From Bugulina stolonifera (taxonomy: Eukaryota; Bryozoa; Gymnolaemata; Cheilostomatida; Bugulidae): a DNA stretch of 64,000 nt. Shown in pieces: positions 1-54,100 of this stretch (positions are counted from its first letter, which is position 1; each line of letters starts with the position of its first letter). Location of the stretch: positions 11,057,072 through 11,121,071 of the forward strand of contig OW285189.1 of the NCBI GenBank assembly GCA_935421135.1, given 5' to 3'. The position numbers were made by a program, and so were the translations under genes. The notes below the pieces were generated by a model. That model searched no databases. It was not told the DNA's origin and worked only from the letters and a program-made list of their open reading frames with translations.

Positions 1-2259
1 AGAAGCCACTGTATTTGCTTCCAACTGAGGCTAAAATTCCATACCCAGTTGGCTGTAGTTTTTTCTCCGGCACTACTTGAGGGTGTTTTGGTAGCAGTTC
101 TTGTGAAGGTTTACATTCAGATTTCTCCCAGAGAGGTGGAAGACGTTTTCTTTCTTCTTCATTGAGCGGAACAAAAACTTTTTTAGCAGTTTCTTCTGAG
201 AGTGGAACTACATGTAGGTTAAAGACTTCACCTGTCCAGTTTACCTAAAGATTTATAATGGATAAACGTTGAAGTTTCAGTATTGGCGGAGTAAAAACTA
301 AATAGATTATTAAACTGGACTAATGTTTACATCCACATTTTTGCAAATGTGGCAATTCCAAGCCCTACAATTGTTATTTCGCACCTATCTGCATGTACGC
401 CCCAATGTACACATATAGAAAAGCGAGCACCATAGCCTAAAACTTTTCTTTAAAGAAATAAATTTTTAAATGTACCAGGCTAAATTTAGATGTAACTCCG
501 TGGGTTAAATTGGAACAAAACCTTCAAGATTGCGTTAAGGCAGGCATTTCTTTCCTATTGGAGTTCTATAATTACCCTGACTGCCGTCTCTGCAGTGTAG
601 GCCTTGCAACACATCAATTGTATATACACATGTTCCTGCAATGAAATAGCGGTGATGCATACTACACATATTCATATCCACTTTACTTTGAATTTTACAG
701 TATCATCTATCAGGGAGTAAATAGGGATATAAAGTTCAGAAGCTCCAGATAGTTGATGTGATAGAATAATGCTCAGATCTATATAACTTTGCAAAGAAAT
801 GGCTGTGTTGTAGACTCTGTCATCTGCACAAGATACACCACATGATTATATGTACATAGCGGAGTTTAATAGCCGGTCGCTAGTATAACTTTTATTCATC
901 ACGTAAGCTATCTAGAATACGTTGAAGCGTACCTTTGAATTAACATAGTGTTTGATATAGTTCTCATTGGTAGAACTGGTCCACTGTGGAAACTTTGAGT
1001 TTGACCAATCATCATATCTGACAATGAGAGACTCCTGTAGTTCTGTTTGATCCACATATTTCCCTTACTGTAGTACTCAATGTAAGGGTGAAGAAAGGGG
1101 GCACATCTATTGGATGAGAAGTCTGGTGCATGTACGTTATCCACAGGTTTTGCTGTGCTGCCAAACCTTCGAAATAGAGCAACAGAGTCCTCTAATCAGT
1201 ACATCTCTGAATGTCACCGATAGCTTTCCACGTTCATTCTTCACAATCTTAATCACTTGGGCTGCGATAGTTGCGTGTAAGGAATTGAGGTGGTACATGT
1301 CAATGATATTGTTATTCACTGCTCGCAAATCACCTAAAATTTTAAAATAATTAATATGCAATCAGAAAAAGCATCATTACACCAGTATAATATATTCTCG
1401 CATCAACTTAAAAGTACAAATTATACTAAACAACCTAGATGAGTGTTATGTACCTACACAGACTGTGGCGTGGCAACGCTGTTCCCATGACATTGGCATT
1501 TAGAATGTTCATATATTACACTACAATGTATTTAAATAACTACACAATGCATATGTAGTATCAGAGAGAATAAAATTGACACTGAGACAAGAAATACACG
1601 TATTTATCAGGCATTCCATTTGTGCCGGCGTTCTATGTAGCTTATTCTCTTAAAATAGAACCTTTCAGTCTACAAGATGACAAAATACTAATTTATTGTC
1701 TTGTAAATGCAAATTGTTCAGTATTATAATATTAATACTTTGTTGTGCACAAATTGTTATAACAATTTCCATACCGACATAGTGGGTATTCCAAGCAAAC
1801 TGTATTCTCTTGTTGAAAATTGAAGGCTATGTGAACAATGGCGGCAGACCCAGAGCAATGATCAGCCGTCTCAAATGCGGAGTTGCCCCCTCTGATAATC
1901 AGGATCATTTTATTTTTGTACAAATCTTTATTCTGGTCATGTTTACTGTAGGTATCTGCCAGTTCAATACCTGTCATAAGAACAATTATAGGTATGTAAT
2001 AGATGAAAATAAACATAGAATTCAAGATAAATGAAGAATTCGTGATAAATGATCAAAATTTCTCAAGGGCTTATTTAATCAGTGTTTGGTTTAGAATTCA
2101 TATAATAATTTAACTATTGCAGCTGATCTATTATATTTGATGCCCAGCTAATGAGCCGAGCACACTCCTGCATCTGTTAAATTGTTGAAGTTAGTTATTT
2201 GTAGACTGATTCTGTGAATTCAGCATCATTTTAGTAAACTCTATAGTGTCACCAATGAG

Positions 2260-3149: not shown

Positions 3150-3920
3150 GAAGCTATAAATAATAATGATGTACAACTTGTAAGACATGTATACTTCCTT
3201 ATGCCGGCTATTGGATTATTATAGACATGCATCTGATTGGAATTATACTGTGACATTGCTAGGACTAAAACAATGTTAGAAGTGGCAATAAGCTGCATCA
3301 GTTTCCAGCCTAATCAAGTCACCTTAGCATCTGACCAGTGTTCACCAGAGGTGAAACATATCAAGGCCCCCTGTTATCTAAAACTACCTGGGTTCAAGTT
3401 CTACCAGTTGATTTTGGCAATTAAAAAATGTATAGAATGACAAAATTTGTTAAATGGTTCCGCAGCAGAATGCTTCAGTATTAGTAGACTTTCGAAACTT
3501 TATATGTAAACAATTTCTGCTAATAGGGTGATCCACTCTAGCCTACTGGTAAGTGATAATGCAAGTCACAGTCACAAGTCACACAGTAGCATCACTTAAC
3601 CTATCAGAGGCTTAGCTGGTAGTAAAGTGATGACCAGTAATGTTAGGTCATTGGTCATCATCGGTTCATTGATGTAATATGACTAACCAGAATTATAATT
3701 CTAAGTATTAGCAGAGCTTATTACCTGATGGTTGACGACAAATCTGGAGCCTACTTATTTCTAGTGTAACTCTAATCTAAAATTGTGCAATCAGTTAGTG
3801 CCAACGTAGCATGTGTAATGACCGAATGAAAAGTGTAAAGAAACATGCTGCTAGTAAATTTATAGGGGCAGTCAGCAAGTCAAGGTTTGTAATCGTACAA
3901 TGTACATGGTAATGTATGTT

Positions 3921-4464
3921 AGTAGTATAGTCAGTGCAGATCTACACAGACACCCGGCCCTTTCCGCGTCGTATTAGCCCTAGATCCAAAAACTCCCCGG
4001 GCGGACGACCACCCCACCCGTCCTCTCGCCCCTCCTCTCCCCTAAACCTCACTCTATGTGCAAAGCCCTAGAACCTACTCCCCCCCATCGCGGGTGGGGT
4101 TTCAAAAACCTCATCGGCTGTTCCGCGGAACCCAGTCTAAAGAGCAAACCCCTCGCCCCATCCCACGGCTCGGGCGAGGGGGCGCGCGCGTACGCGCGCG
4201 CCCCCCCGCCCCGCGAACCCCACCCGTCCTCCCTCCACCCGTCCCCGCCCCTCCCCACCCCTCCCCACCCCAAACCCCTCCGCCTCGCCCTCCGCCTCGC
4301 GGCGGTTCTCGTTCGCGAGTCCAGCCGTGGTCCCACGCCGCCCTCCCCCCGCCCATCCCCCGCCCCTCCCCCGCCCTCCCGCCCCAACGACCCGTCGCGA
4401 CCCTCGCGGGCGGACCGTCGGCTGGAGTAGGGTGAAGCGAAGGAAAATACGGGTTAGAGTAATG
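3921..4464 (+). repeat. Left terminal inverted repeat of the Polinton-like element
   Basis: Inverted copy of 13042-13586. Very C-rich on this strand. It contains the perfect 12-bp palindrome gttccgcggaac (4120-4131) and an alternating GC palindrome centred on gcgcgcgtacgcgcgc (about 4188-4207). The inner boundary is gggttagagtaatg, after which the two sides diverge. Confidence 0.95.
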
Positions 4465-4870
4465 ATAGGCTACACCCGTGCGGAGTGCCCGTGCAGAGTT
4501 TACGACGCTGACTATACTACTATAAAAAACTTACCGAGTGGTGGTGGTGGTGCTTCCGGATGATTTCTTCGCCGGGGACTGTTGAGACTGAACTGGTCGG
4601 GGTGACACCGCACTCGCGCGCTCCTCCGTTCGAGCGCCCCCGGACCTTCGATGAAAGACTCGCGTCTTAACCCTCATTTTCCCCGGACCCTCCCCTAGGG
4701 GAATCGCCCGTCCCCGTGACGAGCGGCGAGAGAAAGTGAAGGCGGTGGCTCTTCCGCGCTTCAAACCGTAGACTTCGCGAGGAGGTTAGCCGACGACATC
4801 ATCGCTCGGAGGGGTAGAAATAGAAATAGATAAACGGGATAGATGGATGCTTGTCTTCTCATCGCCATCG

Positions 4871-4935
<65 letters not shown>

Positions 4936-5370
4936 CAAATAGACCCGCCTCTACGATGATGTCGTTGACTCGCCACCAATTTCTTTGACCACCGCGTCCA
5001 CTTTCCCCCGGGTAGCAAACTCCGATAGGGAGAGAGCGCATCGTGCGCGTGCGATGTCACCCCCCACCTACGAATGAAGACAATAGAAGAAATGTGAACT
5101 GATAAGGGGTGAGTATGAGCGGAAGCTGCGCTAGTATCGTCTACCCCTTTGGTTTGGAGAGGTAAATGGTTTTTAATGTATTAGCTAGTGTTTTATTGCT
5201 CGGTTTTAAGGCTACAACCGGTAAACCCTCCGTTTTGAGGACGGAGACCCCTTACAATAGAGAGTGAATGTGAAAAAAATTATACGGGTATATGTACAAG
5301 GGTTATGATGCACTGTTCGTTTACTCTCCAATTTATCGAATGAAGTAGTCTCATCTCCGAGAAATCAGTA
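4465..5370. other. Spacer between left terminal repeat and polymerase 3' end
   Basis: No convincing gene. It contains the (CAT)n microsatellite, a small hairpin (ctccgt / acggag, about 5228-5246) and, on the minus strand, a canonical AATAAA signal (TTTATT at 5192-5197). That signal lies about 175 bases after the polymerase stop and is a plausible polyadenylation signal for it. Confidence 0.5.
4870..4932. repeat. (CAT)n microsatellite
   Basis: About 21 uninterrupted cat triplets. It creates a poly-methionine frame on the minus strand that is not a gene. Confidence 0.95.
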
Positions 5371-8300
5371 CTAGCATTCTATAGGACTCGTACTCACCCC
5401 GTCTTCTGCAACCTTCCGCTTACCATAGAAGTAGGTGAGTCCGGTCTTTAGCTGGGTGTAGCTATACGTTTGGTTTCCTCTTCTGATAAAACCCCGATTG
5501 TCCCCTCTCACCGACTCCCCTGTCCTGAGCACGGAGAGGAACTTCTCTTTGGTTAGGGCGTTTCCTCTTTTGTTTAGTCCTTTGCTGCTATACTTGCTAT
5601 CACCATCAGCGGACCAGCAAAAGTATGTTTTTGAGTTGAGCGCGATGACCCCCTCTCCCCGAAACTCCTCCTTAAACAGGCCGGGGGTTCGTGTTTCGTA
5701 TCGTTGCACCTTCTCACAACATTCCCTCATCTCCCACTCTTGACCAAGCACCTTGGTCGTGATAAAGTCTTCCTTGTGCCTATCGCAGAAGGGTCTGGGA
5801 AACCATCTACCATATTCTCTGTAGAACTCTTCTTTTTTATCTTTTCGGATGACCTCATCTATACTACGAGCACTCAGAGCCATGTAAGCGCTATCCGTGT
5901 CCATTTCTACGTACTCAAAGTCCTCTCTGCTGACGAATCTGTGAAAATAAAACGGACGGGTTGTAGGGGGGGGGGGGGGGGGGTTGGGGTTGACACCAAA
6001 GAATAAATAGAGAAGGATTTGATAAAATCTTTGTATAGTCTAGTTCTACTTACCTATCCATAAAGTCGTAGTAGAATTCTAGCATTCTCAACTTGGCTCT
6101 CTGGAGGATAACGAATCCTACGACAGATGGAACATCCATTCGAATCTAAAAGAAAGAAAGAGAGAGAGAGAGTTTACCCTACCACTCAGAAAAAGTTTCG
6201 TCAAATCAAGAATCAAAATAAAAAAAAAGATTGTCAACACTTGCCTTTTTCTTGTGAAGCTCTATCTCAAAGTAGTTTTCATCAACTTCGTTTAGACTAG
6301 AAAAGTGCCTACTCCTCACTTTGACAGCCGCCTCCTCTACTGTCTCCACATACTTGACAGTCTTATGTTTCTCTTTATTTGTTATGGTCTTTCCGTAGGC
6401 TGAATTCCCAACGAGCTTGCTGGTGCTGGCCAAGAGGGTCAGGTCGGGGTTCACATCCCCACCTCTTCTTGCGTCTGAGACCGAAGAACCAAAGTCTTTG
6501 TAGATGGCTCGTGGGATAAAGTGAACAAACTGATAGATCCTGGTAATTATCAAACCTTGATCTAGATACCATCTAGCCAGATCGGAGAGTAGTGTGATTC
6601 GCTCGCCAAAAAGACTCCCCACGAGCATTCGCTGAGGTCTCTTCAAGAATCCGTTCTGTTCGGCAAAAGCGCGCATGTGTTCGCTAAGGTGTTCTCTTCC
6701 CACGTTTATATTCTTGAAAATAGGTGCCATCTCAGAGAACTTCGCTTTTAGCTCTTCGGGTACGGAAATGTCACACTCCACTAAACCATAGTACTCTCCA
6801 CTACGAATGTTATTGATTATCTTATCGAGGTTGACGTAACCCCTCTCCGGATAGAGAGAAGAAAAGAAGATGGCGAGAAATGTCCTAACTTCTACATCCG
6901 AACGAACTCGCGCTTCCCACTCACACTGCCGAGTGGTGATGAGCTTATAGCCTAGAGCCTTGATGTAATCTTCTTTCCTTGCAGTGTCCACCCGGAGCTC
7001 TTCATTCGTCATGTTTCTGACACCTTTTCCGTTCCCTCCTAGCTCGCACTCGTGCCCATGCCAGTAGCAACCGTGGAATTGGTACACCGTCCGACTCTGT
7101 TCGCTATAACCATCCACTGGTATGTTGTGACAGCCTATCCTCATTTCTCCTCCATTCTGTTGGTGAAGGATGACCTCTCCTCTCTTCCACGATTGGAACT
7201 CTAACCAACCATGCGCCACTTTGCTGAACTTTTTAATAGGTTCTAGAGCAAAGCCTCGGCTCTCTAGCCTCCGCCTGGGATAACCCGTAGGCATATTCCC
7301 CATCATACAGTATAGGTAGAGGGCGTTGGCATCAACTCCCAGAATGGACCTACAGGGTTTTGCGGATGTGCCATACATCTTCTCTCGAATAGAGGTCACT
7401 CCAACTTCATGATGTCTGTGAAAGATAATGCTTGGCCCTCCCACGAGGTTATCGCGAAGAGTATGGTACAGACTTTTGCTCTCCTCATCGAACAGACATA
7501 TGGGTTGCGAGTTGCAAAGTTCGTCTCGGAGAGACATTAACCTATGCAGCGGAAGAGCGGCTTGTGGAGGAGAGTAGCCATAAGGTCGGGCCTCCACCTC
7601 CATAAACAACCATCTGATAGCCAAGCCTGGAAGCGAGATTGCGGATTTCAACATGTCAATACCCTTTTGTCGATAGATAGAGCTCTGACGTGCAATGGCC
7701 TCGATGAATGGGGCCACATCGAGGTTGTTGTACCAGATGAGAAAATCCCTGAACGTTTCCATGTTCTCTCTTTCCCACACGACCTGACAGTGGTGATAAT
7801 CTTGCTCGCTCAATTCTTGCTGAGTCAGCGAGTTGAAAAAACTCTCTCGGGGAGGGAGTCCATAATAATCCAACCTTCTCAGGGAATCTACCCAGTCGTA
7901 AGGAAAGAATCCCTTACTCTCTGACACGCCAAATGCCTTCAAGTATTTGGAGTAGTTGAATCCCGGTGCGATAAAGTTGCATATGTCAAGGAACCTAAAA
8001 CGTCTACTCTCCACGCAGGACATACTGTTAACACGCTTAACGATGAAGACAAAATCTTCTCCCTCCTCCTCTTGTAGAGAGCGAAGCAAAGGTCCCTTTA
8101 GTATATTTAGGTCATACTTTTGTGAGTTGAAACCAACCACCGGAACGCTGGAGATGTGCTGTTCTAACTCTCTTTCTAATCCGGAGAGACCGGACTTCAC
8201 CCTGTAAGTCGAGACGTTAGAGAACTTTTCGTCAGCAAAGGCTTCTTCTCTATCCGCCCGATCCGCAAGGAAAGTAGAGAGTCGCTTGCGTACATCCCGG

Positions 8301-10044
8301 AATCTTTCTCCGAACAAATCTCCTGCCACGTCAGCAATCTTTGCTATGTAGTGGACGAATTGACGAATGCACTTCGTTCCATCCTTGCTGTCGACACTCC
8401 TCACAAAGCACTTGGCCTGCTCAAACCCCGGGACGTTAGAACATACAGATATGCTCAGTAACTCGTGTCTTGCACTAAAAGTCATTGTGGAGGTGTTAGT
8501 TTGTAGGTTGTCTTTTGGCATGAAGCATTCAATATCATAGGTGATATAGTAGGGGTAGTATAAGAGGTCGGGGTTCACCACCTCTATTCCCGCCACTCGC
8601 TTGAGTTTTGTGAATATGGTTGGCGGGGGTCCAAACGTTCCACCAGGGAAAACAAACACCGATGCTTCCTCTGGCGAGCACTTATGTCGCCGTAGGCTGG
8701 ACAAACGTGTGAAAGCGCCATCGCACAACTTGCAGGTGAAACATCTGGCAAACAAATCAACATTCTTTATCCAGCTGAAGTGGTTTTCGTACATGTTGAC
8801 AAAGAGTTTACGGGCTTTGTTTCGTGCCCCAGATGACCAAACTATCGGAGCTACCCCCTCATCAGTTAGGCAGAAGACTATTATAGATATGTCAAAATGA
8901 TCTTCCAAGGCCAGCAGATCACTCGCGCCCACCCCGGGAAAGTCTGACAAAGTTGATGAGGGTGGGGAAGAAGATCTAGATTGTCTCATGTATTGTTTAA
9001 ACAAGCGATGTGTTGTGGTCTGAGAGGGGCGATGACAGCAACATCCCTTCTTTGGGTCGCAGTTACAGTCATACATCATGGCCAAACATCTAAAGAAACA
9101 CAATTTGTCTGGGTAGGGACGGGCACCTCCTCTGGACCAAAAGTCTACATCTAGTGCTATCACATGTCGGTTGTTAAGTATGTAGTCTGGGAGTTTGCTC
9201 ACTACACCACCCACCTTGCCAATCTCTAGGAGTTTATAGATGTAGAATGTCAAATTTGCAATGTGACGTAAAACCCAAGCGGTGTTCGGTCTCCTTTGTG
9301 CTGACCTCTCTCTCAAGTCGAGCTCCTGCACAGATTCGCAAAACTCTCTCATCTCATTCTCTGCTCTGATCAGTCTTGGCTTGGGGAAGAACGCGGCATT
9401 GTTGCTTGATGAGTGAAAGTAGCGCAACTCTCCACTGGTCTTATGCTCGAGGATGACTCCAGCGCTACAGTTAATCTTCACAGTACAAGGTACTCTCTTC
9501 CACATCGCTCTCAATTTAGTCCACACCTCTTCATCTCCTTCATCTTCACATTCCCCTCTCCACACTCGAACGTTGAGAATGTCTTCTACAGGACGAGAGT
9601 GTATTGTGGACCTGATCGAGCTCCAATAGCGGGCTAGTAGCACCCCCATCTCATCCCCCTCTTCAGCTGTTGGAGGTTTGGACCAGAAAACATCATCAAA
9701 CTTCTCTGCATCCCCCTCATCTTTTTCCGCCTTGACCTCGCTATGAAATCGTCTCATGTGATGACCTAGCTTTCTCCTCCCATCAAAACATCCGCCACAA
9801 ACCGGGCACTTGTGTGGGTGAGCCTGTGCATGCATTCTCTTCGTGTGCCTGTCTAGAGAAAACGCTGTTTTGAGAACCAGACCGCATAGTTGACAAGTGT
9901 GCTCGGCCTGACGAGAGCTCTCCCCCCCTATAAAAATACAAAATAGTAGGGTGTAAGTTATTCTTTTACCTCATACTACTATTAGCAATCCACAATTGTT
10001 ACCAACTACCTCATTTAGCACTAACCTTTTTTACTTGTTGACAT
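5371..10044 (-). CDS. Protein-primed family B DNA polymerase of the Polinton-like element (spliced)
   Basis: Proposed exons: 10044-10026 (start, 6 codons plus one base), 9927-6245, 6145-6054 and 5938-5371, giving about 1,453 aa. The middle introns are supported by family motifs and phase. The intron 6244-6146 has a GC donor (aag/gcaagt). The one at 6053-5939 is gtaagt...cag. Order of parts: two C2H2 fingers (C18, C21, H34, H39 and C47, C50, H63, H68); an OTU-like region (PDKLCFFRCLAMM about residue 284, NHFSWIKN about 387); another finger near 405. Then come Exo I (YDIECF, about 468), Exo II (GFNSQKYDLN, about 604), Exo III (WYNNLD, about 740), motif A (DANALYLYCM, about 870), motif B (KLVGNSAYGK, about 1177) and motif C (DTDS, 1278-1281). 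All exonuclease and polymerase key residues are present, so it should replicate the element from a protein primer at its ends. The first exon is the least certain part; the 9927-5371 part is secure. Confidence 0.93.
5966..5983 (+). repeat. Poly-G tract (18 G)
   Basis: Eighteen consecutive G on the plus strand, inside the last polymerase intron (poly-C in the transcript). Similar tracts occur at 22028, 30753 and 53554. Confidence 0.95.
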
Positions 10045-10277
10045 CTCTGATCAGGTGCTGACTAGTAGGTAAGTGTCTCTGTTTAGTCTCCCTATAAAAA
10101 ATATATAGTAGTAGGGTGTAAGTTAATTTTTTTTGTTTTTGGCTCAATAGCGTTATATACAATAGACACTTCACAATTGCTGCCGATTACCCTATTTAGC
10201 ACTAACCTTATGTTGTACTTGTTGACATCTCTGATCAGGTGCTGACTAGTAGGTAGCTGTCTCTGTTTACTCTCACT
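9928..10277 (-). repeat. Tandem duplication of a leader exon and intron upstream of the polymerase
   Basis: Two imperfect copies (9928-10091 and 10092-about 10277) each contain, in minus-strand order, a stretch with ctgatcagagatgtcaacaag, a donor (ag/gttagt) and an acceptor-like tttttatag. In the proximal copy the ATG reads into the polymerase frame across the intron 10025-9928. In the distal copy the equivalent ATG (about 10237) is followed by a stop after six codons, so it would act as a short upstream ORF. I infer duplication of a 5' exon with its intron. Confidence 0.6.
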
Positions 10278-10328
10278 CTGTTGACTAGAGGCTGATTGTT
10301 CATACTGCTAGAGTGAGAAACTCATACC

Positions 10329-10335
10329 TTAAATA
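10329..10335 (-). promoter_or_regulatory. TATA-like box of the polymerase transcription unit
   Basis: TATTTAA on the minus strand, just outside the left arm of the central array and facing the polymerase. An initiator-like tcactct lies about 20 bases downstream, and a gggcgg (GC-box-like) motif lies between box and array. Confidence 0.45.
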
Positions 10336-10385
10336 GTAGTATTCAGTGGGCGGAGTCTAACCATTTCCCCACCCTTGGCAATACC

Positions 10386-11140
10386 ACCCCGATGTGAATC
10401 CGAAGCATCCCGATGTGATTCCGAAGCTTCCCGATGCATCCCGATGTGATTCCGAAGCTTCCCGATGTGAATCCGAAGCTTCCCGATGCATCCCGATGTG
10501 ATTCCGAAGCCTCCCGATGCATCCCGATGTGATTCCGAAGCTTCCCGATGCATCCCGATGTGAATCCGAAGCTTCCCGATGCATCCCGATGTGATTCCGA
10601 AGCTTCCCGATGCATCCCGATGTGAATCCGAAGCTTCCCGATGCATCCCGATGCATCCCGATGTGATTCCGAAGCCTCCCGATGCATCCCGATGCACCCC
10701 GATGTGAATTGACACATCGGGACACATCGGGAAGCTTCGGAATCACATCGGGATGCATCGGGAAGCTTCGGAATCACATCGGGATGCATCGGGAAGCTTC
10801 GGATTCACATCGGGATGCATCGGGAAGCTTCGGAATCACATCGGGATGCATCGGGAAGCTTCGGAATCACATCGGGATGCATCGGGAAGCTTCGGAATCA
10901 CATCGGGATGCATCGGGAAGCTTCGGATTCACATCGGGATGCATCGGGAAGCTTCGGAATCACATCGGGATGCATCGGGAAGCTTCGGATTCACATCGGG
11001 ATGCATCGGGAAGCTTCGGAATCACATCGGGATGCATCGGGAAGCTTCGGATTCACATCGGGATGCATCGGGAGGCTTCGGATTCACATCGGGATGCATC
11101 GGGAGGCTTCGGATTCACATCGGGGTGCATCGGGACACAT
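10386..11140. repeat. Central inverted tandem array of ~31-bp repeats (large palindrome)
   Basis: The left arm (10386 to about 10705, about 10 units) is made of cccgatgcatcccgatgtga-type units. The right arm (about 10709-11140, about 14 units) is the same unit in reverse complement (catcgggatgcatcggga...). The units differ mainly at a few sites (aat/att, cct/ctt). The junction near 10706-10722 is the only break in symmetry. It separates the two divergent genes of the element, with a TATA-like box beyond each arm, so it probably serves as a shared regulatory region or origin; that role is inferred. Confidence 0.92.
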
Positions 11141-11185
11141 TGGGATTGGATAATAAAAAGGGAGGAGTCAAGAAATGAGCAGATG

Positions 11186-11192
11186 TATAAAG
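11186..11192 (+). promoter_or_regulatory. TATA box of the OB-like protein gene
   Basis: TATAAAG lies 83 bases before the ATG at 11275 and just outside the right arm of the central array. An initiator-like ctcagcattc follows at about 11211, the usual distance. Confidence 0.6.
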
Positions 11193-11274
11193 GGAGAGTG
11201 GGATCACAGTCTCAGCATTCAAAGTTCAGCACATCACTACTGTACAGGAACACTACTACAATAGTACATTATCA

Positions 11275-12589
11275 ATGGATACTGACAACATAGTCCAGAA
11301 CCAAGAAGAGTTATTTGCGGGCTTAACGGACTCACAAATGGATGGAATTATTGAAGAAGAAGAGTGCAGTCAGAAGAGGAAAGAAGAGGTGGATGCGTTA
11401 AAAGAGGCACGGAAGAAGGGGAAAATAATAGGAGTGGGGAGTCTTGCCCGAAAGGATCTTTCTAACATGGCGGACTCTCCGTCCTCCCCGGAGCGGACCT
11501 CGGATAGGGGCGAGACCACAACAACCAAGAAGAGGAAGAACCCAAAAGGAGATGAAATCTGTGCTAAGAAAAAAAAGAAACCCCAGGCGATTGTAATATC
11601 AGATGATGATGATGATGGCCACGGAGCCGATACGGCTACGGAAGAAATGGATGGTGGTGAGACGACGAAGGGAAAAAAAGCTACCAAGTCCCCTTGCAAG
11701 GGGAAGAAAAAGAGCGGGGGACTAAGCCTGGAGAAAGCTCGTGCAGTGGCGGCAACCCTAATGTAAGTAGCCCTATTCGTATATCTATAAATTACCGTAC
11801 TATCTTTCTCCCGTTTAACCACTTTGTCGGATCTATATACACCACTTTCATTATTGTAGGAGCATGGGAGCGGAGAAGAGGAGCTCTCTGCAGACGACGG
11901 TGAAGCTGTCGGAGCTAGAGCCAGGAACTGTGCTAGAAGTGAGTGGAGGTTCGGTGGTTGAAACGGCATTCGGAAAAGCATTCTTAGCCAGGGCAAGCTA
12001 TGTGGATGACAAGGGGATGAGACATTGCATCAGCTTTCACACCAACATTCGTCACGCCATGCCCAAGCTAGCGGATGTCAAAGAAGAGGAGCTAAAGGAC
12101 CTTACCCTTCCACCTAGGATCATGGTGTACTTGGGACAGCAGGAGACCGCTAAAGGACAAAACACATTCAACCGTATCGAGAGCGTGTGCTCCCTGCCAG
12201 GAGCAGCCATGAAAAAGCTGGCCGGTGACTTGAGAAAGAAGACCTTGGTCCAGTTGGAAGAATTTTTTCGAGTGCAAACGCTATCTTCCTTCCCCGTTGG
12301 TTCTGTGCTGGTGGTGACCGCGCTCCGACCCACATACGTCCCAAGATGCGGTGATGGTGATAATGCGAGCAACTCCATTGCCACCTACGAGTGCCGGATT
12401 GGAAACGAAGAAAAAAAGGGAGAAGTCTTCCTTCCGGGACGTCTGGCAGTTTCGATGAAAGAGCTCCTCCCCTCCGTGATGGTGTACAAGGGACAGAAGA
12501 CTTCCAAGAGCGGGAGAACATTCTACGATTGTGCCATTCTAGACTCCATCCTCGGCGAGCGTCTCCTCCCCGCCACTGCACAGTTTTGA
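11275..12589 (+). CDS. Two-domain OB-like nuclear protein of the Polinton-like element (candidate ssDNA-binding protein), spliced
   Basis: Exons 11275-11762 and 11860-12589 give 405 aa; the intron is gtaagt...ttattgtag and the frame stays open across it. The first ~160 residues are charged and disordered: an acidic start, basic clusters (TKKRKNPKGDE, AKKKKKPQ) that look like nuclear localisation signals, a run of five Asp, and a Lys-rich end. The remaining ~240 residues are compact and contain two similar halves. Each half opens with a hydrophobic strand (LEPGTVLEVSG, then FPVGSVLVVTA) and closes with a matching segment (YLGQQETAKGQNTF, then YKGQKTSKSGRTF). The beta-rich repeats with GQ..K.G.. 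loops suggest OB folds, so a single-strand DNA-binding role beside the polymerase is plausible. This is inference: I do not recognise a named family. Confidence 0.85.
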
Positions 12590-12634
12590 GGCAAAAACTT
12601 TTGTCATTCACACTCATTCGTGTCTACTTATCAA

Positions 12635-13020
12635 TTGATTTTATATTATTACTCTCAAACTCGTGTATCGTTAGCCTTACTCATATTTTTCATAGTCGTA
12701 TATCGGTTTTTATCGATTGATTTTATATTATTACTCTCAAACGTATTGAAAATTAAAACAAACTCGTGTATCATTACCCTTACTCATATTTTTCATAGTC
12801 GTATATCAAGTTTTTTATCGCTTGATTTTATATTATTACTCTCAAACGAATTGAAAATTAAAACAAACTCGCGTATCATTACCCTTACTCATATTTTTCG
12901 TAGTCACATATCAAGTTTTTTATCGATTGATTTTATATTATTACTCTCAAACGCATTGAAAATTAAAACAAACTCGTGTATCATTACCCTGACTCATATT
13001 TTCATAGTCGTATATCATCT
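12635..13020 (+). repeat. AT-rich ~105-bp tandem repeats next to the right terminal repeat
   Basis: The motif ttgattttatattattact recurs at 12635, 12717, 12822 and 12927. Spacings are 82, 105 and 105; the first unit lacks the attgaaaattaaaaca segment. The array fills the gap between the OB-like gene's stop and the right terminal repeat and is much more AT-rich than the repeat. It may hold 3' processing signals or act as a replication-associated spacer. No counterpart lies beside the left terminal repeat. Confidence 0.9.
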
Positions 13021-13041
13021 ATTCTAGAATACATCACACAC

Positions 13042-13586
13042 CATTACTCTAACCCGTATTTTCCTTCGCTTCACCCTACTCCAGCCGACGGTCCGCCCGC
13101 GAGGGTCGCGACGGGTCGTTGGGGCGGGAGGGCGGGGGAGGGGCGGGGGATGGGCGGGGGGAGGGCGGCGTGGGACCACGGCTGGACTCGCGAACGAGAA
13201 CCGCCGCGAGGCGGAGGGCGAGGCGGAGGGGTTTGGGGTGGGGAGGGGTGGGGAGGGGCGGGGACGGGTGGAGGGAGGACGGGTGGGGTTCGCGGGGCGG
13301 GGGGGGCGCGCGCGTACGCGCGCGCCCCCTCGCCCGAGCCGTGGGATGGGGCGAGGGGTTTGCTCTTTAGACTGGGTTCCGCGGAACAGCCGATGAGGTT
13401 TTTGAAACCCCACCCGCGATGGGGGGGAGTAGGTTCTAGGGCTTTGCACATAGAGTGAGGTTTAGGGGAGAGGAGGGGCGAGAGGACGGGTGGGGTGGTC
13501 GTCCGCCCGGGGAGTTTTTGGATCTAGGGCTAATACGACGCGGAAAGGGCCGGGTGTCTGTGTAGATCTGCACTGACTATACTACT
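13042..13586 (-). repeat. Right terminal inverted repeat of the Polinton-like element
   Basis: Inverted copy of 3921-4464, differing by about one base in length around the G-run before gcgcgcgcgtacgcgcgc. It has the same palindromes (gttccgcggaac; the alternating GC palindrome at about 13307-13328). It ends ctatactact, followed by the duplicated tatgtt. Confidence 0.95.
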
Positions 13587-14185
13587 TATGTTCACCAACG
13601 AATTTAGACCACTGGTGCTTGAGGTTTCTAAACAGCCTTTCATCAAGCAAATTTTGAAAGCTGTCACAAATTTGTATTATTTACTAACCTTCCATCTGTT
13701 CAGGTAGGAATGTTTTCTTTGACTGCACCAGTAGCCATAAGAACACAAGTGGAAGTACAAGCTGTAATTTCACCATCTTCACCTTCTGTACTCACTGTAA
13801 ATGTTGAGTCATCTTTACTGATCTTGCTGACTTGCTGACTTGATGTTCAGTTGGAATCTGTGAGCAAAATCATTCAAATATCTGTGAAGATCCGACGCTT
13901 GAGGATACAAGTTGTCTGTGTACTCGGTAAATCTCATTTCTTTGTCTTCTGAGAGCAAAGAGTTCCAGTCATGCCTCAAATTAAACTCGTCTTCATCAAA
14001 CAGATTATTCTTCTTGTTCAGGGAGATTAACCGGCGATTTCTTGGATGCTGCTCAAAAAATGTGGCAGCCTTGTTTGCTGCTTCGTAGACGACGTAGCTG
14101 CGGTTGGAATGGTGGAGAAAGTACGCCATCTGCAGACTGGCAGGTCCAGCTCCAATTATGATGTGGTCATAGTCTGTAGAATCAC

Positions 14186-39169: not shown

Positions 39170-42100
39170 ATGAAGGCGGCTGAGGTCGCTCACCTACTCA
39201 AGGACCGAATTGCATTCTGGTCAGGTAGGTCTATGACTGGTTACATAATACCATCTACTCCATCGACTAGTGTTCAATACACACAACTCAGTCATTTGAC
39301 ACATTTAATAGGCGTATCTTACATTCAGTGATGTATTACTATACTTGATTATACAAACTCTTTGACACCGATTAGAGAAAAGGTGTGGAGCATTCTTTCA
39401 ATTATATTGTGATTGTAAAACATCACTTATATTCTACATCATTAGCCAGTAATGAGACTAGACAGCTTTGAAAGCACACCTGTCCTAACAAACCCTGAAC
39501 ACAGCTAGGGTTAGTATTGCTCATTCCATGTCTTGCTAACTTGCCCAAAAAGAATGTGCTGAACTGTAATAAGAATGATCAATTGTGTCGTGTGAATAGA
39601 GATATTATACACTTGTGATTTGATGCCTTTATTTCCCCACTATTGTACCAGCTAATTGAATGTTAGACCAATTTTATATGCTGTTATTTGATTTTGGTAT
39701 GTGTTAGATAGATACATTATGTAGGTCTATGGTGTATTATAAATTATATATACTCCACTGGTATATGCTTGATATTCCATGTGCATTATGTTGTGCAAGT
39801 GCTTGTGCGACCGATGTAGGAGTTATCTCTCTTGTTTTACTAGAAACTGTTTTCTGACCAGTTACCATCATTACTCTTCCCATGTAGAAGTCATGCTGTT
39901 AGAATACTCTGCTTGGTTTGCTAGCTTACTACATGCAAGTCTACTGTGTTCCTGTATCAACTGGCCATGTTTAACTCACTGATATCTCCCCTCTCCCTCT
40001 CTAGGTGGAAGAGACAGACAGGACAGACCAGTGCTCACCTTCCCATGTCATGAAAGTCCAGATAAGTTGAAATATGAAGATCTACTCAAAGTCCTGTTCT
40101 ATCTATCCAAAGTACCCAGGTAAGTCAACTGTAGGCTAGCTATATAATGAAACCAAGTAAGTCATTAGTAACGAGGTAAGTCATTAGTAACAAGGTAAGT
40201 CATTAGTAACAAGGTAAAGGTGCGTTTACACTACACCAACTTATGCAGGAGTCAGTGTAGTGTAAACGCATCTTTAGTCATTAGTAAAAGGATGGGTTTA
40301 TGGCAAGTGTATTGGCTACTGTATTTGACACTAGGGAGGTTAGTAGTAGTAGCAGCCTCAGCAGTCTCCGCAGGTACATTATTACATATGCATATACCAA
40401 GGTTGGTTTATGTAGTAAATATATACCAGGGTAAGTTAGTGGGTAAGTATAAGCGTATACCATACAAGGGTAAGTTAGTGGGTAAGTATAAGTGTATACC
40501 ATACCAGGGTAAGTTAGTAGGTAAATATAGCTGTATACCATACCAGGGTAAGTTAATAGGTAAGTATAGCTGTATACCATACAAGGGTAAGTTAGTGGGT
40601 AAGTATAAGCGTATACCATACAAGGGTAAGTTAGTAGGTAAGTATAGCTGTATACCATACCAGGGTAAGTTAGTAGGTAAATATAAGCGTATACCATACC
40701 AGGGTAAGTTAATAGGTAAGTATAGCTGTATACCATACCAGGGTAAGTTAGTAGGTAAGTATAGCTGTATACTATACCAGGGTAAGTTAGTAGGTAAGTA
40801 TAGCTGTATACCATGGTTATTTCATGCACCCCACTAATTGCCTTCATTATTCTATCTTCAGTCGTGAGACGGTTGAACACGGATTCACGGTTGTCCTTGA
40901 TATGAGAAGGTCAAAGTGGGACAATGTCAAACCTGTACTAAAAGGCCTGCAGGTAATATTACCTACTTTCACTTGCTGACTTTGATGACTGTTTAACCAG
41001 CTGATCATTGAAATTCTTAACTTTTGATACTGGATGTACCATCGTAATATGCAAACGTACAATATACATGTACCTGTAAAGTGCTTGCAAGTAGCAATGT
41101 ATTTTATTGTAGCCATACGCACAACATTACAGTATTACTAGTTGTTGATCTATGTGTGAGTAAAAGTTGCACTGCATACTGTCTATCTGTGTTTGTATCT
41201 AATGTATAGTAAATGTGTTGACATTTAGGAAGTATGTCCAGACCTAGTCCATATCGTGTTTATTATTAAACCTGAGAAGTTCTGGGAAAAACACAAGACT
41301 AATGTTGGATCTTCAAAATATACATTTGAGGTGAGTGGTGTGTGCTAGAACTAGATGTCTATGTATAGTATATACTGAGTGGTGTGTGCTAGTACTAGAT
41401 GTCTATGGATAGTATATACTGAGTGGTGTGTGCTAGAACTAGATGTCTATGGATAGTATATACTGAGTAGTGTGTGCTAGAACTAGATGTCTATGGATAG
41501 TATATACTGAGTGGTGTGTGCTAGAACTAGATGTCTATGGATAGTATATACTGAGTGGTGTGTGCTAGAACTAGATGTCTATGGATAGTATATACTGAGT
41601 GGTGTGTGCTAGAACTAGATGTCTATGGATAGTATATACTGAGTGTTGTGTGCTAGAACTAGATGTCTATGAAAAGTACAGTCATGCTGAATGACACTAA
41701 GAGAAGCCAATGCAGTGCATTTAAATAAGGAAGTACATTGCCCCTCTGCCAGATTATATACCTGGAGAGACTACAGATTATCATTGTTATTGGTTGGATT
41801 ATCCCATTGACTTATCTTCGGGCACCTGCAACCTGCCTCAGGGCACCTGCAAAGAAAATGCGGTGATGTTTGTTATGCGCACAGGCCATTATATTCAAAC
41901 ACACTGAAATACTTTGAAATGGCTATTGGTTATATTAGAAAACCCTCATGTGTATGTTCATGTAGGGCCTATATAGCTGCCATATATTACATATAAATAT
42001 TGTAATGGAAGTTCTTGTAATCTGTTCTACTTAGAAATGTGTCCTTCGTCCTTGGTCACTGCTGCCAGTGTATATACTTTCACCCTAGTCTAAGCTGACA

Positions 42101-48100: not shown

Positions 48101-51100
48101 TTGTATTCATGCTTGTAACGAGTATGATATGATATACGTGGGCAGATAATAATCAATTATTTTACATCCCATACCATAATAGGTAAGATATAACATTGTC
48201 CTTCTGGTATCTCCTCACTCATGGCGTCTCTATACCTAGGTGGTATCTGAAGGAAATAAGCTACTAGATATACTACAGACCCCAGTAGCTAGCTCAGCGT
48301 ACAACTCTATCATAGCACAGGCTGACTACAGGGTCGGCTCTGACCACCTACTAAACATGATACACGAGGTACTAGAGAAGAATAAGAGTATAGAGGAATG
48401 CTGGACCTTGACTAAGTCTCAGTTAAACCAGAAACTGGGTTTACGACTCTTTCAAAAAGACGTCCTTCAGGTCAGCCAATCAAATTTACTATTTCGTCCA
48501 ATTAGATCATTTATGTGATACATATTAACACTAAACATAATTATTGTGCACTTTTCACATTCAAAATTTGAGAATTGGAATAAAAGATTTTCCGATGTAG
48601 GCCTACAATGTACGCAAGATTTACATTTCCAACCTATGTGTACATAAATCTTCTGTGATAGAAAAATACAAGAATTTATTTTTTTTTAAATTCTAAATAA
48701 GATGAGATGCACAGACTTGTCAAAATCTGTTTTCTGTCATGGAATGCTCATAATAATGTTCAATGTGCTTACATCAATTCCACTGGACTTGGAAATTGTC
48801 TGTCCTTTTCTGTGATGTGTAAGGGTGAGACAACTCCAGAATATTAATATTGTTATATTTCCAGGTGCTCACATGGCTAGATAATCATGGCAATGTGTTC
48901 CTAGACAAAAATACGAATGTAGGTCGTAGTCTGCAGAAGGCAGTGAGTCTACAGAAAGCTCACGACCATTTTGAAACTATAGCAGAGGTAAGACTAAGTA
49001 CATCACACAGTGCATTCAGTACATGTCTAGCAACCGTTACCGGGCTATATTCTAGCCCTGAGACACGGCTAGATGGCTCACATTAGTTGTCTTCTGATAG
49101 AAATTCTACTTGCATAGAATATCTGGCAGGATGATGTCATACTGCCAGTATGTATAGCTAATAGAAAGTACATTGAGGGTGATTATAGAAAGTTTGCATA
49201 TGATAGAAATTATTGATCTGGACTGAGTCCATTTGAATGATAAATCATATAACATTATAGTCTAGTAATTTATCCTAATGACATTTCCTGGCATAAGGCT
49301 CTGATCTCTCTTCTCCTGTTGTTCTTGACCTCTACATATGCATAATAGTATAATGGTTGACTGTTATAGTAATAAAATAATATGTTATATTACTTGTTCA
49401 AAGCTAGTTGAGTACCTCTTTACCAGTCGTTGATAATTAGTTTCCAATATAGTGGCTATTCATTAGTCTTTATCACTCTATAATATATCTCATGTGTATC
49501 TCAACTTTTACTAAGAAATGAATCAGGTGATATGATTGGATGACTAGTTTGTACCAACTCCTGTCTCGGTTAGTCTGAATAACAACTCGGTTACAGTCTA
49601 GTTTCTTCTTATTCATAAACTAGTCAGTCTTTATCCTTACCTGCCGGCAATGTACTTATAGGTGTATTACAAATTATATCTAGATTATTATTGCAAGGTA
49701 AGCAAATACGGTAAACTTTGATTTGGCTTCTTGAGAATATCCCCTAAAATTTATATTTAATACTAATTAATAGTATTAATTATAATTTATATACAATAAT
49801 TTACAACAGTAATTAATGTAATATATTATGTCGAGTAACTAAGCATTACTAGAAAATGAACAGTAATTTGTATTATTTCATAACAGGATGGGATATCATT
49901 GTGATACATAGTAATAATCTATAGTCCTACAATCTAGTTTTAAATTTTGTTTTCAAATATTATTTCAATTAAGATTTTATATACCTTAACTTTAATTAAG
50001 CTTATGTTCAAGATGTAATGTAATATGGATGTGGATTGTAGAATACGATTACTAATGCTGACAAACTACTTAACGCTGCTGATGAGCTCGCTCAAAGTGG
50101 AGAATGCAACGCCGAACAGATCAACATGGAGGCCGGCAAGTTAGAGTCGAGGATTCGTGAGTTTCTCCAGCGACTAGAACAGAGGAAGAATCTACTCACT
50201 CTAACTGTTAATTTCTACACCCACACTCAGGAGGTAAGTGTGTATATGTATACATCTACACCCACATTCAGGAGGTAAGTGTGTATATGTATACATCTAC
50301 ACCCACACTCAGGAGGTAAGTGTGTATATGTATACATCTATACCCACACTCAGGAGGTAAGTGTGTATATGTATACATCTACACACACACTCAGGAGGTA
50401 AGTGTGTATATGTATACATTGTACACCCACACTCAGGAGGTAAGTGTGTATATGTATACATCTATACCCACACTCAGGAGGTAAGTGTATGTGTATATGT
50501 ATACATCTACACCCACACTCAGGAGGTAAGTGTGTATATGTATACATTGTACACCCACACTCAGGAGGTAAGTGTATGTGTATATGTATACATCTACATC
50601 CACACTCAGGAGGTAAGTGTATGTGTATATGTATACATCTACACCCACACTCAGGAGGTAAGTGTGTATATGTATACATCTATACCCACACTCAGGAGGT
50701 AAGTGTGTATATGTATACATCTACACCCACACTCAGGAGGTAAGTGTGTATATGTATACATTGTACACCCATACTCAGGAGGTAAGTGTATGTGTATATG
50801 CATACATCTACACCCACACTCAGGAGGTAAGTGTGTATATGTATACATTGTACACCCACACTCAGGAGGTAAGTGTATGTGTATATGTATACATCTATAT
50901 CCACATTCAGGAGGTAAGTGTGTATACGTATGCATCTACACCCACACTCAGGAGGTAAGTGTGTATGTGTATACATTGTACACCCACACTCAGGAGGTAA
51001 GTGTATGTGTATATGTATACATCTACATCCACATTCAGGAGGTAAGTGTGTATACGTATGCATCTACACTCACACTCAGGAGGTAAGTGTGTATGTGTAT

Positions 51101-54100
51101 ACATCTACACTCACACTCAGGAGGTAAGTGTGTATACATATGCATCTACACCCACACTCAGGGGTGTATATTGTGTGCATCTACACCCACACTCAGGAGG
51201 TAAGTGTGTATGTGTATACATCTACACCCACACTCAGGAGGTAAGTGTGTATACGTATGCATCTACACCCACACTCAGGGGTGTATATTGTGTGCATCTA
51301 CACCCACACTCAGGAGGTAAGTGTGTATGTGTATACATCTACACCCACACTGAGGAGGTAAGTGTATGTGTATATGTATACATCTACACCCACACTCGGG
51401 AGGTAAGTGTGTGTGTATGTATAGATGTAAGTGTATACATGTATATGTAGGTATCAGTGTAGGAGTAAGTAAGTCTGTGTACACCTGATTTCTATTGGTC
51501 AGATGCATCTACTATGCAAGTCATTAATTATTTGAGATGATTAGTAGAATACACTTACACTGTATGTGTACTTTGTATTCACAAAAGGAAAAGTAGACCT
51601 ACATTTGTGTCACGTATATGTAAATACGATGTACCAGTCAGTGTATGTACACTTGAAAGCTTGACTCTCTGAACATTATATAATAATGGTATAATAATTT
51701 AGAGTTATCTGCTCCTACCTATATATATTTATATTAGCTCAGTATTGTACCCAATGTGTTGTATTTAATCTAATCCCTTAATAATTGCTAATAATAATTA
51801 TAATTAATTATAATAGTTAATAGTATATTTTATGAATAACAACAACAAATCCTACAATATATAACACAAGGTAAACCAGCAGGTGATGTTTAGTGCCTGC
51901 CTCTCTTGACCACTGCTTGCTTCTAGCAGATTGACATTGTATACTAATTAGCAATAATTAAAAGACAACTTGAGGCTTTTAAGTGTCTTATATACTATAT
52001 AAGTCAGTGCATGGTTTTAATGATTAGCTTATTGAGTCCTACAGTCAACCCAGGCACTTCCCCAGAGCCTTGAGTATGGACTGGGGTACACACATAGCTA
52101 CATTAAACGCACATGTGCAGTATATTATATACTAGCAACTGTTTACGTGTAATTACTGCGCTGTTACATGATAACTGGCTACATTTAGTCTATTCAGTCG
52201 ATTCACTGCAATAATAAAGTGAAATATAATGCCAAACAGTCAACTTTAACTTCACTTATAGACAATCATAATCAACTTACTGGTAGTTAAAGTTTACAAG
52301 TGCTTGTGTAAGTGGAGATAGATAACCTTTATACATGACATACAAGTAATAAGTAACATTGTATGTATGTATTTATAGTGTATCAAGTAGTATATCCAAG
52401 GAAAGACAGCTGTTGTTATAGTCAATAGTGTAATGTTTTATCAGGTATTCACACTGCTAGCTGAGATATGAGAACGTATATGTATATGTATGGCTTGGTT
52501 AGAATTAGTAATTACTAATTACCTACACCAGTGTTATATTGGGTCTCAGCTCTTGGGGGCAGGAGATTAGTTACTTCCCAGGAAAGTGAGTATTATATAG
52601 TTGATTATCATCTTTGATATTATCTGGTTACTGCAATAACACTGATCATAGTGTTGTAGTTTTGTATGAATTTCTATAAAAAAGGTAAGTGATTATATTT
52701 AAATTGCAAATAACTGAAATAGGCATTATAGAATGATAGCATAAGGTAAGTTTAAAATTTTATCATCTGATTTTAATAGTTGTACTACATGTATATGTTG
52801 GTAGCCTAGCAGTTTTGTGCACTGTATTTATATTGCATTTAAAACAAAACCTGTGTATTCTAATATTATAGAGGCTACACTATGTGTACATCTAAGACAA
52901 CATGCATGTTTATTATACAGCCATGTAGTTTGCTACTAACTATAACAAATTATTATGCATTATAATAATGTTTTGTGTGCTAGACAAATTTGACATGTGA
53001 AAAATGAGAATATAATATCTCTTTATCATATACGGTGTATGCGCCTGTGACTGGAGACATCATTTCTCTCTTCTCTAGAGGCTGTGGTATTGTAGTAGTT
53101 GCATTTATAGAGTCATAGAGTATAGTTGCAGTAGTTATAGTTTATTATCTGTTGCTCCTGTCAGCAGTGTTATCATAGTTAATTATTTACCATCAGCTGG
53201 TCAGTTAACCGCTGCCACGAGTGTCAGAAACCCTACTGGCAGTAGTATTTAGTTGTACTGTCTAATTATTCCAGCTGTCAGAGTGGTTTGAAGAGCTCAG
53301 GACTGAACTGTTGGATGGTAAACTAGCCGAGAACGTGGACGAGGCCACCCGTCTTGTTAACCAATTTCACAGGCAGAAGGAGGCTACGATAGAAGCGGCA
53401 GTGAATACAATAAACGAGGGAGAGAGTTTACTAGAACAGCTAGGGTTGGTATTGTATACATACATGTACATGTATTATGCGTATATCTCATAATATTAGA
53501 TGTAGGCTACCGTGTGATTGTGGTAGCCTGATGATTTGCAGGTTACTCCTCAAGGGGGGGGGGGGGGGGGGTACGTGCATTCTTTCTCATAAAACACAAC
53601 CTGTTAGTAAAAAACAATAGATTTTGCATTACAAGTCACATTTTTAAATTTACATACATTTTTGAAATACCAGTTAAAAGATGTGTTCAGTTGCTACCAA
53701 CATAAAATAGCTGACATGGATCAATACTGGATATATGCAATGTATGTGTACTAACAGTTGTACACACATAGTCCTCCTCCTACAGTTACCTTTCCATAGA
53801 ACATACTAACAAAAGGTGGTGTTGCTAATTGTATTCAACAAATCGGTGTTCAGTGTGCTCACAAAACTGGACAAGGTGGTTTATACACCTTCAGTAAGGA
53901 CTACATAATACCTGGGCTGTGTACATACCTCATGCTTACCAAGTCCCCCTGATTCTGTAAACAACAAGTTTATCTCATTCCTACCTGATTTCAAACTGGT
54001 TTTTGTACTGAAAATAATTATTTTACCACTTTTTCAAATTGTAAGTAAATCTCCAAGTCTGAGGGAAGATTTACATTTCTATTTCTCTACCAGATATTTG

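Follow-up and report, generated by a model that had tools for sequence, protein, structure and literature searches.

Element A of the Bugulina stolonifera genome as the probable replication segment of a bipartite Polinton

A 9.7-kb element in the window (the whole 64,000-nt stretch of Bugulina stolonifera DNA analysed here) is probably the replication segment of a bipartite Polinton, whose integrating, perhaps packaging, partner is a second element family of the same genome. We call the two A and B. Both are young, multi-copy families; B carries the complementary gene set and also makes 6-bp target-site duplications. From these gene contents we infer that A and B each depend on the other for movement.

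Structure and genes of element A

Sequence reading places the boundaries of element A at exactly 3921 and 13586. Its features, in window coordinates, are as follows.

3915..3920, no strand: left target-site duplication, TATGTT
3921..13586, no strand: element A, putative replication segment, 9666 bp, defined by terminal inverted repeats and 6-bp duplication
3921..4464, + strand: left terminal inverted repeat, 544 bp
5371..5938, − strand: polymerase exon 3, with motif C (MDTDS), from frame and motif reading
6054..6145, − strand: polymerase exon 2, from splice sites and frame in the sequence
6245..9929, − strand: polymerase large exon, from the open frame 6206-9835 and upstream openness to about 9929
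10080..11526, no strand: block also found in young B copies, from sequence comparison
10400..11146, no strand: CCGATG-type array of 31-bp repeats, its two halves opposed in orientation, in the space separating the divergent polymerase and OB genes
11275..11762, + strand: OB gene exon 1, charged, without Pfam match, from frame reading
11860..12589, + strand: OB gene exon 2, two predicted tandem OB-like folds, RPA/POT1-like, from predicted structure
13042..13586, − strand: right terminal inverted repeat, 545 bp
13587..13592, no strand: right target-site duplication, TATGTT

The original prediction, of a recently active element with Polinton-type ends and two genes only, one for a polymerase and one for an OB-like protein, is borne out in each of these parts. 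The two long terminal repeats differ by a single indel, an extra C in the right one, and TATGTT stands on both sides. The large-exon open frame of the polymerase (6206-9835, − strand) encodes 1209 aa, with C2H2 fingers, an OTU-like motif, exonuclease motifs and polymerase motifs A and B, some of these parts being named by what we take to be the corresponding motifs; motif C follows in exon 3, and the splice sites read from the sequence are GC-AG and GT-AG. Pfam matches the protein to PolB (PF03175, 2e-6, 27.4 bits against a cut-off of 25.8), and by its sequence the polymerase appears to be of the protein-primed type.

Nothing in Pfam matched the OB gene. Two OB-like barrels appear in the model of exon 2, which was built from two sequences and has a mean pLDDT of 65, and all 12 of its PDB matches at E ≤0.001 are of RPA, POT1 or Teb1 type, with TM scores that are low over the whole model (0.16-0.21). 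The tandem-OB protein thus modeled probably binds ssDNA. Six copies of exon 2 show one replacing and no silent difference, a small sample.

Profile searches detected no gene for integrase, ATPase, protease or capsid in A; ten of its remaining open frames had no Pfam match at E 0.01, and in tblastn comparisons of A with nine B proteins and with the open reading frames of a canonical Polinton the polymerase was the only match. With only a polymerase and an OB gene detected, A by itself falls short of the Polinton gene set.

Copy number and recent activity

Exact 24-nt A ends occur 365 times in the genome (187+178) and exact 24-nt B ends 341+349 times; the reversed-pattern control gave 0. Sizes and linkage were taken from the first 100 places listed for each family, counting those ends that paired (6 of 100 A places and 2 of 100 B places did not). 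Of the 47 A-type elements so paired, 29 measure 9.63-9.76 kb. The 6-bp duplication was identical on both sides in 20 of 20 copies and in eight of eight further ones, that is, in all 28 examined. Since these additional copies lie genome-wide, each with a 6-bp duplication of its own, a chance origin of A is excluded.

Frames are open as well. The polymerase piece is stop-free in all 91 scored matches (the best 91 of 399) and the OB gene in 146 of 150 (the best 150 of 340); for B the genome-wide check was made with its MCP, stop-free in 94 of 94 (the best 94 of 269). Because A is recently active and only replication genes were found in it, its integrase is probably supplied in trans.

The partner element B and class C

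Integrase supply in trans to a self-replicating element had been foreseen and is probable; its likely source, a partner in the same genome, had not. A different integration route becomes unnecessary. In the copy B′ the B integrase matches rve (2e-11) and Chromo (1.2e-6) in Pfam, so that it includes a chromodomain, and the B catalytic residues D80, D140 and E175 are in place. B further encodes an A32-type packaging ATPase (Pox_A32, 1.1e-7), an MCP, and candidates for protease and penton. The MCP model (mean pLDDT 65, pTM 0.71) matches PBCV-1 Vp54 (2e-15) and the mavirus MCP (1e-11) in the PDB, and by this predicted fold the protein is a double jelly-roll capsid protein. The protease candidate matches Peptidase_C5 at only 0.06-0.1; the penton candidate has no Pfam match and is presumed from its likeness to known pentons. 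A genome-wide Peptidase_C5 search had no match, and its controls had none, so that its outcome is uninformative. No polymerase was found in B′ by tblastn, and for this reason A and B resemble complementary parts rather than an intact element and a fragment of it.

Whole reading covered five elements with a capsid gene. Three were older B copies, in each of which genes are broken; the other two were B′ elements, one of them carrying a nested insertion. At a fourth place with a B-type ATPase, C11 near 857 kb, no long inverted-repeat pair was seen. A further class, C, has B ends and the array and no recognised gene (its 516-aa open frame scores near no Pfam cut-off), and looks like a satellite.

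Shared sequence and separation of the gene sets

The outermost 33 bp of the A and B ends are about 91% identical; beyond them the terminal repeats are unrelated. The array is shared too. The densest kilobase holds 49 CCGATG/CATCGG sites in A, 45 in both B′ and C, and 14-21 in the three older B copies; the corresponding count is 1 for each of the two canonical Polintons compared and likewise 1 for 50 kb of host DNA. A stretch of 1.4 kb of A recurs in both of the young B copies read: the block 10080-11526 is 88.3% identical overall, with 93.7% in its left unique part and 97.3% in its right part, which includes the start of the OB gene.

The gene sets themselves stay apart. By listed hits, no OB gene lies inside any of 49 paired B-type intervals and no MCP inside any of 47 A-type ones, so both sets meet in none of the 96 paired-end intervals, which represent roughly one in six of the exact ends. 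Of 94 MCP hits, 3 have an OB hit no more than 15 kb away, close to the 2.0 expected.

Proposed mechanism

In the bipartite reading, a terminal protein would prime the A polymerase, which would copy any linear DNA ending in the shared AGTAGTATAGTCAGTGCA-type terminus, and the B integrase would insert these copies, making a 6-bp duplication. The CCGATG array that they have in common may act in cis as a site of replication, pairing or packaging, and class C would be a satellite within the system. A tentative extension, to which we give somewhat less than even credence, is a multipartite integrating dsDNA virus of an animal, in which A with the replicase, B with integrase and capsid, and C with hardly any genes would be separate chromosomes of about 9.5-10.9 kb that would share a terminal origin and one integrating enzyme and be packaged one per particle by means of the array.

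Alternative explanations

A and B might instead have arisen by separate deletions from a single complete Polinton of about 17-20 kb that had the same ends and is missing from the assembly or was overlooked, and be mobilised by it in trans; we regard this as unlikely. Such deletion products do arise and spread, since defective, rearranged A copies exist: A′ is one, of 7.66 kb, and 14 of the 47 A-type intervals fall below 8.4 kb. Whole reading, moreover, covered part of the elements; of the six B-ended intervals longer than 12 kb, two were read. Those two, the longest, proved to be a B′ that has a hAT-like insertion nested in it and a class C element that also contains an insertion, not a parent, and none of the 96 paired intervals is one by listed hits. 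Helper-dependent elements would not be expected to retain open genes, yet the polymerase, OB and MCP frames are open in the scored copies. In MCP codons, silent and replacing changes between B′ and two older copies stand at 11:8 and 16:14, an excess of silent ones over the share of roughly one in four that is generally expected without selection. The original prediction had held that full-length relatives with the same ends would make A an internally deleted derivative; relatives with nearly the same ends do carry integrase and capsid genes, but no polymerase was detected in them.

Canonical 15-kb Polintons are also present, with polymerase, integrase, ATPase and further genes on one element and with 6-bp duplications where their flanks were read. 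As their outermost 9-10 bp are those of A and B, they might supply the missing functions, A borrowing an integrase and B a polymerase as otherwise unrelated partners. We consider this very improbable: the canonical ends diverge after those first bases, the CCGATG array is lacking, identity to the A and B proteins is 26-29% for the three that match, and the canonical ATPase explains only six of the ten ATPase matches listed. As the parent of A and B, a canonical Polinton is ruled out by protein identity, ends and array. Least probable of all, and hardly to be expected, is that A integrates itself, a Vsr-like insert in its polymerase being the nuclease that makes the staggered cut. A weak Vsr-like match does lie between motifs A and B (E 0.003 in A), and among 22 members of the polymerase alignment six match Vsr and two the Vsr-related RAP at E 0.01; the match in A is, however, under the Pfam cut-off, and B, with an rve integrase and no polymerase found, makes the same 6-bp duplication.

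Significance and comparison with known systems

If the bipartite reading is true, segmentation can arise among integrated elements, with the labour of replicase and capsid divided in a split Polinton. Such an arrangement could explain Polinton-like pieces without integrase or polymerase that are otherwise termed defective, and it is a testable system, both halves being abundant, with open genes, in one sequenced animal. The array common to A and B is a candidate signal for packaging or for pairing.

Scans of IMG/VR with the polymerase, the polymerase alignment and the MCP alignment gave no relative. Among the records listed, with most subscription journals outside the scope of the search, no title or abstract opening mentions a bipartite or segmented Polinton. 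Close analogues are Bidnaviridae and the Drosophila Vesanto virus, which in the excerpted accounts have, like A and B, PolB and linear segmented genomes with terminal inverted repeats (PMC4061559, PMC8363768, PMC11071296). In those accounts they are ssDNA viruses for which no integrase is mentioned, and Bidnaviridae have parvovirus-type capsids; A and B, in contrast, are integrated halves with an rve integrase, and B has a double jelly-roll capsid gene. No SF3 helicase, which Bidnaviridae have, appeared among the Pfam results for A and B, which covered the B proteins other than one of 451 aa. The segment-like traits of A and B, common 33-bp ends and complementary genes, are known from genome sequence. 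In adintoviruses and other Polinton-like viruses PolB, integrase and capsid modules occur in varying combinations, some members being without recognisable PolB and integrase, and the excerpted account mentions no same-ended partner in the same genome (PMC11071296). The canonical Polintons of B. stolonifera share with A and B the 6-bp duplications and outer 9-10 bp, and differ in having all genes on one element, in protein sequence and in the array.

A close likeness is also to Polintons/Mavericks (Polintoviricetes), whose terminal repeats begin with AG and whose gene list is that of single elements. The published list (PMC11071308, as excerpted) gives the comparison. A and B jointly have a PolB of protein-primed type, an rve integrase with chromodomain, an A32-type ATPase, a double jelly-roll MCP fold and a protease candidate, together with long terminal inverted repeats that start with AG and 6-bp duplications; they differ in that this gene set is spread over two elements of about 10 kb, each with ends of its own.

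Element A and its insertion site

The window corresponds to C3:11057072-11121071 in the searched genome (235 Mb, 27 contigs) of the cheilostome bryozoan Bugulina stolonifera. Element A (window 3921-13586), the proposed replication half of a split Polinton, ends in inverted repeats (544 and 545 bp) whose sole difference is one additional C, and is flanked by a 6-bp duplication, TATGTT. Its first bases are AGTAGTATAG; the slide-back of protein-primed replication relies on a short tandem repeat at the extreme terminus. Because pieces of a host flavin-oxidoreductase-like gene stand on either side in collinear order, A is probably located in an intron.

Window 1732-2025, minus strand: flavin-oxidoreductase-like gene piece (Pyr_redox_3, 0.0018, below cut-off)
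Window 13815-14129, minus strand: flavin-oxidoreductase-like gene piece (Pyr_redox_3, 8e-5, below cut-off)

Elsewhere in the window, the host DNA holds a 41-bp unit repeated in tandem over a long stretch (28.7 copies, 50214-51412) and more arrays at 40423-40814 and 41332-41678.

Genes of element A

The polymerase gene (minus strand) consists of one large exon, with an open frame of 1209 aa, and two short exons; its first intron (window 6146-6244) is by appearance of the GC-AG type. The product matches DNA_pol_B_2 (Pfam, 2e-6). Exonuclease motifs are in place, as are motifs A, B and C, the last of these encoded by the final exon. A Vsr-like stretch, below the cut-off in this protein, sits between A and B; in the polymerase alignment Vsr is matched in 6 of 22 members and RAP in 2 of 22. 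To the eye, and outside any profile match, the residues DKLCFFRCL near position 243 resemble the D2 (OTU-type) domain of Polinton polymerases, as described in part of PMC11071308.

Exon 2 of the second, tandem-OB gene (plus strand) encodes a 241-aa region; two database entries match it at E 0.01, the first identical and the second at 43% identity. The structural model of this region (mean pLDDT 65, built from two sequences) has two five-stranded barrels; RPA, POT1 and Teb1 lead its PDB matches (E from 1.6e-5; TM 0.16-0.21). No Pfam match at 0.01 was found in ten further open frames of A.

Abundance and age of family A

Family A is both young and abundant. Exact copies of the A-type 24-mer number 187 in the forward and 178 in the reverse direction across the genome; the reversed-pattern control has none. 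Among the first 100 places of this end type, 94 pair up into 47 elements, 29 of them at 9.63-9.76 kb, 3 at 9.13-9.32 kb, 14 shorter and 1 longer. The best 150 of 340 candidate OB matches are 98-100% identical (146 stop-free), and the best 91 of 399 candidates for a 464-aa polymerase piece are 99-100% identical, none with internal stops and 86 inside open frames of at least 1190 aa. In a rearranged, defective copy, A' (contig C1:5429527-5437188), the polymerase middle is missing and the right end is replaced by the left 1.1 kb in inverted orientation, an arrangement that we take to resemble defective linear viral genomes.

The complementary family B

A genome search for A32-type packaging ATPases, in which the best 150 of 192 candidates were scored, gave ten places. 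Six are the ATPase of canonical Polintons, which have polymerase, integrase and ATPase in one element; three of the six were read as elements of ~15.1 kb. Canonical Polintons also have 6-bp duplications, and their three enzymes are 26-29% identical to the counterparts in A and B. Three of the other four places were read as whole B elements of 9.3-9.8 kb, each with a 6-bp duplication, and the start of one of them is AGTAGTATAGTCAGTGCActTCTAtACAGACAC, the corresponding stretch of A being AGTAGTATAGTCAGTGCAgaTCTAcACAGACAC. These older elements hold an integrase, the ATPase, a major capsid protein (MCP) and penton and protease candidates, with some genes broken in every copy. At the remaining place (contig C11, near 857 kb) a long inverted-repeat pair is absent within the 30 kb fetched; this may be a B copy that has decayed or been truncated.

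A younger copy (B', C1:5414706-5425529) has nine open frames, measured from stop to stop.

Open frames of B', in listed order
451 aa
225 aa, ATPase
134 aa
195 aa
359 aa, integrase
256 aa, penton candidate
147 aa
461 aa, MCP
177 aa, protease candidate

The integrase matches rve (2e-11) and Chromo (1.2e-6) and has residues D80, D140 and E175. The MCP model (pLDDT 65, pTM 0.71) matches capsid proteins of PBCV-1 and mavirus, and its top match in a viral library is a Cotesia bracovirus protein; genome-wide, all 94 scored MCP matches (best 94 of 269 candidates) are identical and open. The protease candidate has a weak Peptidase_C5 match (0.06-0.1), and the penton candidate is so named by resemblance. 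With the A polymerase and the canonical polymerase as tblastn queries, no polymerase was found in B'. The exact B-type 24-mer occurs 341 + 349 times, a count that takes in a third class, C, with B-type ends; its control gave no occurrence. Another B' copy (C1:26262243-26279407) holds a nested ~6-kb insertion, with open frames that are presumably hAT-like.

Links between A and B

Six sequence features, namely complementary genes, ends, array, common block, duplication length and gene separation, argue that A and B belong together. Beyond the complementary gene sets, the outermost 33 bp of A and B agree at 91%, while canonical Polintons match them over only 9-10 bp. A CCGATG-type repeat array is present in A, B and C: counted over the densest kilobase, A has 49 sites, B' and C have 45 each, and older B copies 15, 21 and 14, whereas two canonical Polintons have a single site apiece and 50 kb of host DNA also yields one. 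A block of A (window 10080-11526) recurs in both young B copies read; in B' its identity is 88.3% overall, 93.7% in the left unique part and 97.3% in the promoter region and OB start. The older copy on contig C6 is without it. The simplest account of the block would be template switching during joint replication. All 20 further copies examined (5 of the C size class, 5 B' and 10 A) have 6-bp duplications, as do eight other elements.

The separation counts rest on the best-scored candidates and the first 100 places of each end type. On that basis none of 49 paired B-type intervals contains a listed OB match and none of 47 paired A-type intervals a listed MCP match; OB is present in 27 of 29 full-size A intervals, and a listed MCP in 11 of 49 B intervals. 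Of 94 MCP matches, 3 are within 15 kb of an OB match (random expectation 2.0). Six B-ended intervals exceed 12 kb; two were read, and among the other four a 13.6-kb one holds a listed MCP. Canonical Polintons might supply help to A and B.

Class C

Paired B-ended elements of 6.9-9.65 kb number 22; for nine of them a 400-bp mid-piece was compared. Seven of the nine match an AT-rich element at C1:12730353 (97-100% over 341-400 bp), and the other two match it partly (95% over 138 bp, 85% over 262 bp). The right repeat of this element appears to be interrupted by 5.5 kb of inserted DNA, and its left end is 99.9% identical to the left end of B' over 691 bp. The element has the CCGATG array and one open frame, of 516 aa, that gave no Pfam match. 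Class C may be a satellite. Another AT-rich repeat is common to B-ended elements (8.6 and 6.9 kb) and an A-ended element (7.3 kb), 97-99% identical in places, and may reflect additional exchange between the classes or the existence of a fourth one.

Proposed mechanism and known systems

Replication of A, B and C would start at their AGTAGTA ends, through the A polymerase and a terminal protein, which according to part of PMC11071308 belongs to the polymerase itself in Polintons. The displaced strand would be covered by the OB protein, and the B integrase would insert the linear product, making a 6-bp stagger. A (9.65 kb), B' (10.6-10.9 kb) and C (~9.5 kb) are of similar size, which is suggestive of a packaging limit.

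In other data, at E 0.001, the A polymerase has 263 relatives, the top-scoring of those listed 50% identical, and the MCP has eight, five at least 45% identical and one of the five identical. For 12 of 120 listed polymerase relatives the longest contig is 10.0-12.0 kb, and some other relatives are on far longer contigs; lengths of 10.0-12.0 kb may reflect A-like segments, and assembly alone could produce them.

The component parts of A and B are Polinton parts. Among the papers listed in our literature searches, none showed an integrated Polinton divided into a replication element and an integration/capsid element; bidnaviruses and Vesanto virus have PolB genomes divided over segments, as described in parts of PMC4061559, PMC8363768 and PMC11071296.
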